From Sulfurimonas sp. HSL1-2 (GTDB taxonomy: Bacteria > Campylobacterota > Campylobacteria > Campylobacterales > Sulfurimonadaceae): a stretch of DNA of 64,000 bases. The position numbers were made by a program, and so were the translations under genes. The stretch spans positions 1,919,573 through 1,983,572 of the forward strand of contig NZ_CP147914.1 of assembly GCF_039645565.1 (NCBI RefSeq). Reading direction: 5' to 3'. The notes beneath the pieces were generated by a model. It did not search any database. It worked only from the letters and a program-made list of their open reading frames with translations, and was not told the DNA's origin. Positions 40,932 through 45,357 of this stretch are shown here, one piece after another (positions within the stretch are counted from its first letter, which is position 1; every line of letters starts with the position of its first letter).

Positions 40932-41375
40932 ATGAGCCTGAGAGAACAGATCAACAACGATATCAAAGAGGCGATGAAAGCCAAGGACGTCGAACGCCGC
41001 GACGCGCTCAGACTCCTCAGCAGCGCCATGAAACAGGTCGAAGTGGACGAACGCAAAGAGCTCAGCGACGACGACGTCATCGCCATCATCCAGAAGCAGA
41101 TCAAACAGCGCAACGACGCCGCAGGCCAGTACAAAGCGGCGGGCCGCGACGAACTCTATGACAAAGAGATGGCGGAAATCGCCGTTTTCGAAGTTTACCT
41201 GCCGGCACAGCTCGATGATGCCGAACTCGAAAGCGCCCTCAAAGCGATTATCGCACAGACCGGTGCAGCATCCATGAAGGACATGGGCAAGGTCATGGGG
41301 ATGGCCGGCAAAGAACTCGCCGGCCAGGCCGACGGCAAACGCATCAGCGAGTGCGTCAAAAAGCTCCTTTCATAA
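40932..41375 (+). CDS. yqeY: GatB/YqeY domain protein
   Basis: 147 residues. Helical YqeY fold: opening SLREQINNDIKEAMKAKD, then RRDALRLLSSAMKQVEVDERK, and a C-terminal helical domain related to the tail of GatB (KDMGKVMGMAGKELAGQADG). Full GatB uses this tail to hold tRNA; the stand-alone protein is common but its job is not settled. Ends in a good terminator. Confidence 0.9.
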   Translation: MSLREQINNDIKEAMKAKDVERRDALRLLSSAMKQVEVDERKELSDDDVIAIIQKQIKQRNDAAGQYKAAGRDELYDKEMAEIAVFEVYLPAQLDDAELESALKAIIAQTGAASMKDMGKVMGMAGKELAGQADGKRISECVKKLLS

Positions 41376-41389
41376 ATCTCTACCCCTTT

Positions 41390-41411
41390 GACCTTTCCTT
41401 CAAGAAAGGTC
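41390..41411 (+). terminator. Rho-independent terminator of yqeY
   Basis: GACCTTTC-CTTCAA-GAAAGGTC is a perfect 8-bp stem followed by TTTCCCCATTTTTT. Confidence 0.75.
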
Positions 41412-41442
41412 TTTCCCCATTTTTTCCATACTATCCGCTAAA

Positions 41443-42156
41443 ATGTATACTAATAACTTAGCTAGGTGCATAAAATTGAAACGAATGCGTGAACTCATTG
41501 AGAGGGTTAAGGTTACTTACCCTGACGATTCATTTTTTAACGATCTCGATGAAGTTTTTGAATTGTCATCACAGGCCAGCTCACACTATCAAGCCTATGA
41601 ACTAGCATTTTCATATTTGGACCCAGCTTCATGGCAGATTCTCTCCCAAAAAGCCATGGAACATTTCAAAGATCATCGTGAGGGTCAATTAAAGCAGGGA
41701 TTTTTCAATCAACTCAATGAGGCATTCGCCTATCAATTCCTAGTCCAGTGCGGTTATGAAAATGTAAGAGTTCTAAATGAAAATGGAAATACCCGCCCTG
41801 ACCTTACATATGATGCTGCCGGTATAAAACGATATTGTGAAGTTAAGACCATTGGCCTATCCGACGATGAGATTAAACGTTATGAAACAGGAGAAGCTTT
41901 TGACGGTACTGTATATATGGAACTGTCGGACGGTTTTTTGAGACAGCTCAATGATGATTTAGTACGTGCACATGAGCAAATTACTAGTCAGGGAAGTCAT
42001 GGTCTAGTATTCGTAATAGTCAATTTTGACGATTTCACACTTACTTATTACGAGCAATATCATAAGCAAATTACAGAATTTTTGGCTCACCACAAAGTCC
42101 CAGAAGTCTATATAAAAGTTGGACTACTCAGTAAGCATGAAATTTATAAAAAATAA
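41443..42156 (+). CDS. Orphan PD-(D/E)XK nuclease-like protein in AT-rich island
   Basis: 237 residues. Central motif TRPDLTYD...RYCEVKTIG (about residues 124-146) is the PD-(D/E)XK core: Asp, then E-V-K after a beta strand. A preceding Glu in FFNQLNEAFAYQFL fits the extra N-terminal acidic residue. The lines I counted are near 40% GC against about 58% around, so recent transfer is likely. No methylase, specificity subunit or toxin-antitoxin partner lies next to it. The N-terminus is uncertain: ATG at 41443 has no ribosome site, TTG at 41476 has AGGTG at a good distance, and ATG at 41485 is also in frame. It may be a solitary restriction-type or defence nuclease, or a decayed remnant. Confidence 0.7.
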   Translation: MYTNNLARCIKLKRMRELIERVKVTYPDDSFFNDLDEVFELSSQASSHYQAYELAFSYLDPASWQILSQKAMEHFKDHREGQLKQGFFNQLNEAFAYQFLVQCGYENVRVLNENGNTRPDLTYDAAGIKRYCEVKTIGLSDDEIKRYETGEAFDGTVYMELSDGFLRQLNDDLVRAHEQITSQGSHGLVFVIVNFDDFTLTYYEQYHKQITEFLAHHKVPEVYIKVGLLSKHEIYKK

Positions 42157-42170
42157 GTAGTAGATGGTTG

Positions 42171-42185
42171 CCGGGCAAAGCCCGG
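42171..42185. repeat. REP-like palindrome at the island edge
   Basis: CCGGGC-AAA-GCCCGG within TTGCCGGGCAAAGCCCGGAA, followed by TGACGAGG. Such extragenic GC palindromes with a TGACG flank recur in many genomes. Only one copy was seen in this window. It may also end transcription of the nuclease gene. Confidence 0.5.
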
Positions 42186-42208: not shown

Positions 42209-43009
42209 TTATTTCGGGCAGCCCTCGCCCGTTTTGAGGCAGCGCAGCGCGCTTTCTACGTCGTCCTGGCGCATCAGTGACTCACCGACAAGAAAGGCAT
42301 CCACACCCGCTTTGCCGAGATCTTCGAGCTGGCCGTGCTCGTAGATGCCGCTCTCGGCGACGATGATCTTGTTATTCGGGATAAGCGGGATAAGCTTGTA
42401 GCTCAGCTCCATATCCATCTCAAAGGTCTCCAGGTTGCGGTGGTTGATGCCGATGATGTCCGCCCCGGCGAAGATCGCCTTGGTGAGGTCCGTCTTGTCA
42501 TGGATCTCGACCAGGGCCTCCATCCCGAGATGGCGGGTGTAGTCGAGCAGCTCCTTGAGCTCTTTGCGCGAGAGCGCCTTGGCGATGAGCAGGACGAAAT
42601 CCGCGCCGTAGACGAGGGCTTCGACCAGCTGGTACTTGCTGACGATGAAGTCCTTCCGCAGGAGCGGGATGCTTGCGTAGCGGCGGATCTCCGCGAGGTA
42701 GTCCAGACTCCCCTGGAAATAGTGCGGTTCGGTGAGGATGGAGATGGCGTTCGCACCCCCGCGCTCATAGGCCTGCGCAATGGCGACCGGGTCGAAGTCT
42801 TCACGGATCACGCCTTTTGACGGGCTCGCTTTTTTCACTTCGGAGATGATGCGGTACGGTTCTTCCTCCGTCGCTTTGAGGTGCGGGATGACCGGGCGCG
42901 GTGCACGGGCGTTGAAGGCAAGGGAGCGCCCCAGCCAATCCATGCTGTACTCCTTTTCGCGGCGGGCGAGGTCCTCTTTGGTCTTCGCGATAATCTCATC
43001 CAGAATCAT
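42209..43009 (-). CDS. trpC: Indole-3-glycerol phosphate synthase
   Basis: 266 residues. Ring closure of CdRP to indole-3-glycerol phosphate in tryptophan synthesis. TIM barrel with [44 protein letters not shown] and VAESGI. Complete. It is isolated from other trp genes; instead its ATG overlaps the TPR lipoprotein stop by one base. AAGGAAAGTA precedes the ATG. Confidence 0.95.
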
Positions 43010-44301: not shown

Positions 44302-44665
44302 CGACGATCCCCGGGCACTCCCGCTTGAGTTCATCGACGCGGGTCTTGTAATACTCCCAGAAGGGGAAGGTACGGCACTGGAGGGGGCGGGCCGTGTAGA
44401 CGCCGCAGCCGTTCGTTTCTCGGTCGAAAAAGATGCAGTCGTGCGACATGCCGACGATCTTCTCTTTGAGCGAGAACTTGTAGCCCCGTTTTTCGAGGTA
44501 GGTACGGCGGAAGTCCGCCTCCTCCATCGCCAGCGCACCCGCCAGTGCCCGGATCTCGTCGGGGGAGACGAAGATATTGCCGCTTTCGCCGGTGCAGCAG
44601 CGCCCGCCGCACCCGGCGCAGGCGGAAGGGTCGAACGCGTAGGGGTAGCCGTCTTCTTTTATCAT
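44294..44665 (-). CDS. YkgJ-family cysteine cluster protein
   Basis: 123 residues. The family's metal-binding cluster is present: CAGCGGRCC near the N-terminus, then HDCIFF, GCGVYTARPLQCRTFPF and a late Cys. These bind zinc or an iron-sulfur cluster; function is not settled. The start at 44665 overlaps the upstream stop (ATGA); an ATG three codons earlier is possible. Between trmN and the TPR lipoprotein gene. Confidence 0.85.
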   Translation of the reverse strand: MIKEDGYPYAFDPSACAGCGGRCCTGESGNIFVSPDEIRALAGALAMEEADFRRTYLEKRGYKFSLKEKIVGMSHDCIFFDRETNGCGVYTARPLQCRTFPFWEYYKTRVDELKRECPGIVDV

Positions 44666-45357
44666 AGGGTGCATTTTATACTGTGCGTCCTTGCATCGCG
44701 GTAGACCTGCAGGCTCTTGGCGGAAAACTCATCTTCGTCAAAGGCGAAAATCGGTGGCCGGACGCGCATGAGCGAACGGGAGTTTTTCCGGGCGTGCAGC
44801 ATCACCAGGGTCGCGTTGCGATCCGGTTTCGAATGAACGAATTGTACATCAACCACTCTTAATTTGGCGCGTTCGCAGGCGGCACAGAGGTGGGCGAACT
44901 GCTGGGGATCGTAGCAGAGCATCAGGTGCCCCTGCGCCTGCAGGAGCTTCGCGGCATGGGAGATAAATGCGTCGATGGGAAGGTGCAGGTTGTAGCGCGC
45001 CGTGTGCACCATTTCGTTCTCCGAGCGCGACGCCCCCTCGTGATAGAAGGGGGGATTGGAGACGATGTAGTCGAACCCCTCGGGGTCCTTGAACGCGAGA
45101 AAATCCGTGTGATGGACCCGGTAGTCGATCCCGTTCACTTCCGCGTTCTTCGAGGCGTACTGCACGAAAGCGTCCTGCTTCTCCACCGCCTCAAGCCGCA
45201 CTTTCGGATGGTCGCGTGCCACCAGCAGCCCGACGACACCGCAGCCGGCCCCCACGTCGAGCATGCGGCCCCGCGGCGTGAAAGAGGAGATGAAGTCGTA
45301 CAGGAAGATCGAGTCACTGTTGTAGCAGTACCCCTCCTGCGGCTGGTAAAGCAGCAT
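44662..45357 (-). CDS. trmN: tRNA1(Val) adenine-37 N6 methyltransferase-like
   Basis: 231 residues. SAM-dependent N6-adenine methyltransferase: N-terminal QPQEGYCYNSDSIFLYDFI, motif I MLDVGAGCGVVGLLVA, catalytic VSNPPFY. This layout matches YfiC/TrmN6 enzymes, which modify A37 of tRNA-Val1. AAAAGGCGTTCG precedes the ATG. First gene of the trmN-ykgJ-TPR-trpC run. Substrate is by family only. Confidence 0.82.
   Translation of the reverse strand: MLLYQPQEGYCYNSDSIFLYDFISSFTPRGRMLDVGAGCGVVGLLVARDHPKVRLEAVEKQDAFVQYASKNAEVNGIDYRVHHTDFLAFKDPEGFDYIVSNPPFYHEGASRSENEMVHTARYNLHLPIDAFISHAAKLLQAQGHLMLCYDPQQFAHLCAACERAKLRVVDVQFVHSKPDRNATLVMLHARKNSRSLMRVRPPIFAFDEDEFSAKSLQVYRDARTHSIKCTL

Follow-up and report, generated by a model that had tools for sequence, protein, structure and literature searches.

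A probable PD-(D/E)XK nuclease gene between yqeY and trpC of Sulfurimonas sp. HSL1-2, with relatives in cassette-like and phage settings

Introduction

The stretch of 64,000 nucleotides from Sulfurimonas sp. HSL1-2 analysed here (the window) carries, between yqeY and trpC, a short AT-rich gene with a nuclease-like motif. This locus raises the question of what the gene encodes, how it came to occupy this interval, and why a nuclease would be kept there as a solitary gene. The gene is read here as encoding a solitary PD-(D/E)XK endonuclease that was acquired recently, belongs to a family not yet registered and protects its carrier against phages or foreign DNA, an interpretation that we consider, by a little, probable. 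The evidence is presented below from the gene itself outwards, to its neighbours, its site in the genus and its relatives elsewhere.

The gene and its flanking elements

The open reading frame list gives a frame from 41443 to 42156 on the + strand, 237 aa long if its ATG is used. A TTG at 41476 seems to be the better start, and the resulting 226-aa product was taken because the aligned relatives begin at this position (MRRM, MKHF), DNA similarity sets in at 41474-41482 in three of four relatives (L003, L004 and L007; later in L002), an AGGTG lies 7 nt 5' of the TTG, and the end of the promoter-like site (41451) falls 3' of the ATG. The extension ahead of the TTG is probably not translated (Table 1). 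The gene has a GC content of 38.0% (GC3 31.3%) against 58.5% in the window, and when 700-base segments were taken at 100-base steps the lowest-GC one fell on it, in keeping with the AT-rich character remarked on in the sequence-only reading.

The hairpin with a T-tract 3' of yqeY folds far beyond its shuffled versions (Table 1). It is the probable yqeY terminator, as had been suggested, although it was missing from the output of the simple terminator scan. The palindrome between the nuclease gene and trpC had been called REP-like. The palindrome was borne out by its folding and probably forms an RNA hairpin where two genes converge, but its REP-like nature was not: its 16-mer has one exact copy genome-wide plus one with one mismatch, the reversed control pattern also gave 1, and three congeners gave 2, 0 and 1. 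It is not repeated in the genome and was rejected as a REP element.

Table 1. Features of the nuclease locus and its surroundings (window coordinates)
Feature	Position	Strand	Remarks
yqeY, left flank	40932..41375	+	Pfam PF09424 1.8e-52; 93.7% nt identity to G006
Hairpin, 8-bp stem, plus T-tract	41390..41426 (hairpin part 41390-41411)	+	fold z -4.49
Promoter-like TTTCCA-17-TATACT	41423..41451	+	9/12 matches; count of such sites at chance level
In-frame extension 5' of TTG, from ATG	41443..41475	+	absent in aligned relatives; pLDDT <50 at residues 1-10
GCTAGGT	41461..41467	+	8 nt before TTG; one mismatch from GTTRRRY
Nuclease gene, solitary, PD-(D/E)XK type (probable)	41476..42156	+	TTG start, 226 aa
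Glu93 codon (237-aa numbering), helix acidic residue	41719..41721	+	Glu/Asp in 6/6 family members
Asp120 codon of PD motif	41800..41802	+	invariant 6/6
Cys132-Glu133-Val134-Lys135 codons (CEVK)	41836..41847	+	invariant 6/6
GC-rich palindrome CCGGGCAAAGCCCGG	42171..42185	.	fold z -2.86; single copy in window
trpC, right flank	42209..43009	-	Pfam IGPS 9.9e-88; 96.3% nt identity to G006
Methyltransferase, TrmN-like	44662-45357	-	about 2.5 kb from nuclease; Pfam/NCBIfam

Conserved motif and predicted fold of the protein

In the alignment of six family members, residues N81, P108-D109, C121-E122-V123-K124 and F184-D185-D186 (trimmed numbering) are invariant, and position 82 is always Glu or Asp. 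The D...EVK core picked out earlier is thus present, as PD (119-120) and CEVK (132-135), and the catalytic-type D...(D/E)xK motif is kept across all six sequences. Between the Pelomonas and Undibacterium genes described below, dN/dS is 0.23, which points to a maintained function under purifying selection.

Two structures were predicted; both used one set of five close sequences, led by a different sequence each time, and gave pLDDT 78.0 and 76.3 and pTM 0.81 and 0.77. In the predicted fold, a helical N-terminal part precedes a core of the order helix-strand-strand-strand-helix-strand, which has acidic residues at strands 2 and 3. A core of this order is the topology of the PD-(D/E)XK superfamily. 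The structural matches listed, at Z 4.4 to 7.0, include CdiA-CT, Hachiman, McrBC, SduA, Can2, HindIII, XisH, YaeQ and Hjc, with MspJI, AgeI, MunI and BspD6I entries also among them, and a family absent from the VIA-align lists is not thereby excluded. The best superfamily match was CdiA-CT (Z 7.0, and 6.9). All Z values were below 8, and unrelated acetyl-CoA carboxylase domains reached 6.5 and 7.6; since the superfamily matches are tied with or below these, the fold assignment is based on the motif and on where this lies within the predicted core, and not on Z. On those two grounds, the protein probably belongs to the PD-(D/E)XK superfamily.

The family appears in none of the libraries that were searched. 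For the six family proteins, Pfam, NCBIfam, PHROGs and PADLOC returned sub-threshold rows or none, and none of P0001 to P0006 matched a PADLOC family. Sub-threshold NAGLU, ROXA and glutaredoxin rows, as well as PHROGs rows at E 0.019 to 0.23, were discarded as noise. Neither among PDB entries nor among viral models did Foldseek give a match at E <= 0.001, and a PDB profile search with the family returned nothing. A single-sequence PDB match to the "Cake" repeat series (about 21 residues, best E 3.9e-4) was put down to chance, as no stretch passed alone. We know of no paper on this nuclease family.

Neighbouring genes and the matter of a partner methylase

Ten ORFs between 33 and 48 kb and the two next upstream (twelve in all) were scanned with Pfam, and two more ORFs with NCBIfam. 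The scanned neighbours are housekeeping genes or have no match. Among the twelve, Pfam found no cognate DNA methylase adjoining the nuclease and no helicase score.

One methyltransferase gene deserves consideration (Table 1). Its product scores 26.6 bits on Eco57I against a cut-off of 25.3, but is better described as MTS (1.5e-19), and its best NCBIfam row, below cut-off, is the tRNA methylase TrmN. It occupies the same place, at 92.8-95.3% identity, in all three single-contig congeners, which lack the nuclease. Its conservation there means that it did not arrive with the nuclease gene, and it was rejected as a partner; the same conservation makes it probably a housekeeping RNA methylase. The earlier statement that there is no partner methylase therefore stands for the twelve neighbours.

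These data bear on the possibility that the gene encodes a type II restriction enzyme, decayed or orphaned by the loss of its methylase, which the host survives because the sites are rare or are shielded by a different methylase, or because the enzyme is weak. The presence of HindIII, AgeI, MunI and BspD6I among the structural matches is consistent with it, as is a methyltransferase just over the Eco57I cut-off some 2.5 kb away. That methyltransferase is nevertheless kept by the three single-contig congeners without the nuclease; moreover, a reading by eye of ORF lists around the relatives showed no DNA methylase next to them, and yet the frame is under purifying selection. An orphan type II enzyme is accordingly unlikely, and a solitary nuclease that acts without a dedicated methylase remains the preferred reading.

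The yqeY-trpC interval in the genus

Similarity to congener G006 ends at the yqeY stop codon and restarts at the trpC stop codon. The trpC gene was found in all eight genomes of the genus, host included. In the three single-contig congeners (G004, G006 and G007) the gap between yqeY and trpC is filled by a YitT-family gene with a GC content of 58.7-60.0% (L015:600-1448, L016:561-1403 and L017:564-1412). A search of the genus found yitT in 3/8 genomes and not in that of the window. The nuclease gene thus stands in place of yitT, with no empty site, and the change reads as a gene swap at a genus-variable gap. The sequence-only reading had the gene inserted between yqeY and trpC; the location was right, whereas insertion into an empty site is ruled out by comparison with the three single-contig congeners, since yitT occupies the interval there.

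The gap 3' of trpC varies across the genus, being occupied by yitT, by VOC-type and AraC-like frames, by another frame or by the nuclease. The VOC-type and AraC-like frames (named by eye) adjoin trpC in draft G003, and the other, different frame lies beside trpC in draft G001 (L018 and L019 being the loci of these two drafts). A contig end truncates the trpC match in G002 and G005, and the gap lies outside what was seen.

The nuclease itself was found in none of the seven congeners sampled, three of which (G001, G003 and G005) are drafts, 76-89% complete. The opposite picture, the same gene at the same place with normal GC in all relatives, had been named as the one that would speak against acquisition, and it is not what the genus presents.

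Distribution and acquisition

Relatives of the protein are rare. Matches were found in 2/60 genomes of the nearest sample, in 2/298 of an order-level sample and in 3/397 of the phylum-level sample. The last count became 2/397, namely the window's genome and G020 (44% identity), after one false match was dropped: in G414 (L006:1420-1920, E 4.3e-4) the match lay within a coiled coil resembling ATP synthase b (named by eye).

Further afield, 27 stretches in the genome_contigs collection matched a pattern, and three of them encode relatives, each with 55% identity: those of Pelomonas sp. Root1217, Undibacterium baiyunense and U. macrobrachii. Samples centred on these genomes gave 1/300 for the order of U. 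baiyunense and 1/399 for the family of Pelomonas, the centre genome itself each time. At the level of the class 2/369 genomes matched, of which the second, G1330, encodes a distant relative (E 9.2e-24). Viral contigs contributed two loci, identical over the 800 bases compared, which encode a phage relative with 55% identity to the window protein; a viral scan with P0004 gave nothing. Plasmid and phage record collections gave no match (P0001 against both, P0004 against plasmids, P0005 against phages).

Horizontal acquisition of the nuclease gene is well supported by these comparisons, because the gene was matched in 0/7 sampled congeners and in 2/397 genomes, its GC content is 20 points below that of the window, and its relatives include Burkholderiales and phage genes at 55% identity.

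Cassette-like units in Burkholderiales

Over 769 alignment columns, the DNA of the Pelomonas gene is 86% identical to that of its Undibacterium counterpart, while their loci are unlike, with GC contents of 66.8% and 45.2%, respectively, and different neighbours. In the two Undibacterium species the whole 16.7-kb region is common, with 94.9% identity, so that it represents one acquisition. The homology between the Pelomonas and Undibacterium loci starts 8 nt before GTTAGGC, itself 7 nt before the ATG, and stops 12 nt past GCCTAAC. Integron attC core sites have the form GTTRRRY and the complementary RYYYAAC. In Pelomonas the pair is exact and perfectly complementary (GTTAGGC/GCCTAAC); in Undibacterium GTTAGGC is paired with GTCTGAC, which departs from the consensus at one position.

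As a control, ORFs of at least 100 aa flanked by both exact core sites were counted. They numbered 5/36 at the U. baiyunense integron locus, 1/34 at the U. macrobrachii integron locus, 1/40 at the Pelomonas locus (the nuclease relative; 1/55 in the overlapping L041) and 0/166 in the window. The Undibacterium nuclease loci (1/16, 1/17 and 1/16) were left out, as other motifs, GTTAAAT and GTTTAAC, were involved. Folding of the putative attC sites as single bottom strands, against shuffles and with DNA energies, gave z -1.14 and -0.58, which is unsupportive, with no known attC as a yardstick. Both Undibacterium genomes encode an integron integrase that scores over cut-off, located on contigs other than that of the nuclease. 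Pelomonas and the window's genome gave only below-cut-off integrase matches, and weak matches of this kind occurred in 14/14 control genomes. The Burkholderiales copies are lone and outside arrays, and from their bounding core sites we read them as integron-cassette-like units outside arrays.

At the window copy no attC was found, the best candidates having one mismatch upstream (GCTAGGT) and two downstream, and no flanking direct repeat or target-site duplication stood out. The GCTAGGT precedes the start by about the same offset as GTTAGGC does in the Burkholderiales genes. This is not significant alone, because at 14 in 1024 per position a one-mismatch GTTRRRY match will often turn up by chance somewhere within 30 nt, and the motif is a possible core-site vestige.

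The settings described so far also speak to two other roles. The gene could encode a recombination or other DNA-processing nuclease (Hjc-, XisH- or YaeQ-like) that serves mobile elements and not defence, in line with XisH-type matches at Z 6.1 and 5.5, then 6.5, Hjc matches at 4.4 to 5.0, and YaeQ rows. These Z values are, however, tied with those of unrelated folds, and in the ORF lists read the gene is alone on chromosomes or forms a cassette-like unit, away from recombination genes; we find this role improbable. That the gene is selfish, a homing endonuclease standing free or something similar, and spreads by cutting its own target site, has only a slight chance of being the right reading: Foldseek lists the homing enzyme I-Ssp6803I at rank 15 (prob 0.89, E 0.29) and the phage copy is intergenic, in the tail region, but the neighbours at the different sites share nothing evident, the window copy replaces another gene, and the Burkholderiales homology is bounded by cassette core sites.

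Phage, HigBA and Mrr settings

Three further settings were seen, in one instance each. On the phage contigs the gene order is endolysin, tail terminator, tail completion (S-like), nuclease and baseplate (V-like), continuing past the V-like gene with a baseplate wedge (W-like) gene, a tail protein (I-like) gene and a tail fibre gene. As judged from this gene order, the phage copy sits at the orf30 position of P2 in a P2-like phage. The P2 orf30 locus is described as one of three loci with horizontally acquired genes (PMC3091744), so the phage relative, between its S-like and V-like genes, resembles the accessory (moron) genes of P2-like phages at that locus. The P2 defence hotspot that was tested lies between gpA and gpQ, as described in PMC9122126, which is elsewhere than the locus of the phage relative.

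In G020, from the family of the host, the nuclease gene starts 14 nt after the HigA gene of a HigB-HigA pair. The GC contents differ (45.2% for the pair and 29.5% for the nuclease), and the two may therefore have come separately. The pair (L002:2178-2841) scores on the PADLOC models PD-Lambda-2_A (8.4e-38) and, for its first part, PD-Lambda-2_B (4.5e-48). PD-lambda-2 is described as including a third gene (PMC9519451), and in G020 a third gene likewise comes after the HigB-HigA pair. In contrast to that system, the G020 HigA is 128 aa long and covers positions 3-121 of 402 of PD-Lambda-2_B, the peptidase part being missing, and the third gene matches no PADLOC model; membership of the locus in PD-lambda-2 was not accepted for these reasons.

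The G020 arrangement could indicate a toxin-like or addiction nuclease acting in abortive infection, as third partner of HigBA in G020 and as an orphan elsewhere, which the third gene of PD-lambda-2 and CdiA-CT among the top structural matches (Z 7.0 and 6.9) would suit; given the truncated HigA, the nuclease without a PADLOC match and the single instance, no HigBA having been seen beside other copies, the likelihood of this is small.

In G1330 a protein with an Mrr_cat domain (1.1e-05, over cut-off) is encoded upstream of the distant relative on the same strand. This protein has 337 aa (L046:2448-3461) and weak PADLOC scores for PDC-S02 and LmuA. A kinship between the distant relative and the adjoining Mrr-type protein was considered and dropped (hhalign probability 0.5%, E 0.12).

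Proposed function

We infer DNA cleavage and a defence role for the solitary PD-(D/E)XK nuclease. The N-terminal helical part would bind DNA, and a metal site formed by E93, D120, E133 and K135 would cut it. As no partner methylase was seen, the enzyme probably either acts on modified DNA, in the style of type IV enzymes, or has to be switched on by infection or by a DNA structure. A nuclease that is carried by mobile elements for the benefit of the host would most likely be anti-phage or anti-plasmid. Protection against phages or plasmids would be the carriers' benefit and would explain carriage by mobile elements.

The invariant motif, the Glu/Asp position of the helix, the FDD motif, the predicted core, the nuclease entries among the structural matches, the foreign GC content, the lack of a match in the seven congeners, the mobile settings, the HigBA and Mrr_cat neighbours, the dN/dS of 0.23 and the anti-phage genes described from integrons argue for this function. 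Against it count the lack of any defence-model match, Z values below 8, the unsupportive attC folding, the lone copies, the window copy without an attC, the possibly separate arrival of HigBA and nuclease in G020 and the single-instance settings. The sequence-only reading had spoken of a defence or mobile-element nuclease; the second half agrees with the cassette-like units and the phage accessory gene, while defence is suggested by the setting.

A broader reading is that the gene belongs to an unnamed family of one-gene, methylase-free anti-phage nucleases that moves as a self-contained unit among integron cassettes, the orf30 site of a P2-like phage and chromosomal gaps, has crossed between the phylum of the host and the Burkholderiales, and is represented in the window by what may be a cassette whose attC was lost. 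We put this forward tentatively, as a possibility somewhat short of an even chance. If the gene restricts phages, it would be a compact defence gene missed by the family libraries searched. In that case a single family would also tie together integrons and the P2 orf30 site, both carriers of short accessory genes. It could then be put to the test whether a cell can safely keep a solitary nuclease that has no methylase, and by what means a single gene continues to travel among dissimilar elements and phyla.

Relation to known systems

With other members of the PD-(D/E)XK superfamily, such as restriction enzymes, Hjc, HamA and McrC, the protein shares the PD...ExK motif, the acidic residue in the helix and the predicted topology. 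It differs from them in having no library match above chance and in its own conserved N-terminal helical part and FDD motif. The predicted fold is comparable to that of Hachiman HamA, with Z 5.3 and 6.1 for 8vx9 chain A, which we take to be HamA from its 259 residues. Hachiman needs the helicase HamB, whereas no helicase was scored among the twelve neighbours, and both Z values are below 8.

Integron cassettes with anti-phage genes have been reported (Darracq 2025, Kieffer 2025 and Getz 2025, as cited in the review PMC12409362). The same review describes a V. cholerae strain whose 179 cassettes include at least 16 that are anti-phage, 88 of the 179, with unknown function, having been expressed and tested. 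The Burkholderiales relatives resemble such cassettes in being a short single gene between attC core sites. They differ in being lone and not arrayed; in addition, the window copy has no recognisable attC, and an anti-phage activity is only presumed here. The literature search found no paper on a solitary restriction enzyme in integron cassettes.

An integrase locus and an integron were also observed. Congener G007 carries an integron integrase over the TIGR02249 cut-off (L040:9357-10331), with no attC nearby by pattern scan, which says no more than that the genus has been reached by an integrase of the integron type. In U. baiyunense, L038:10102-15000 is a small chromosomal integron; besides its integrase, it has attC sites of which at least three are clear.
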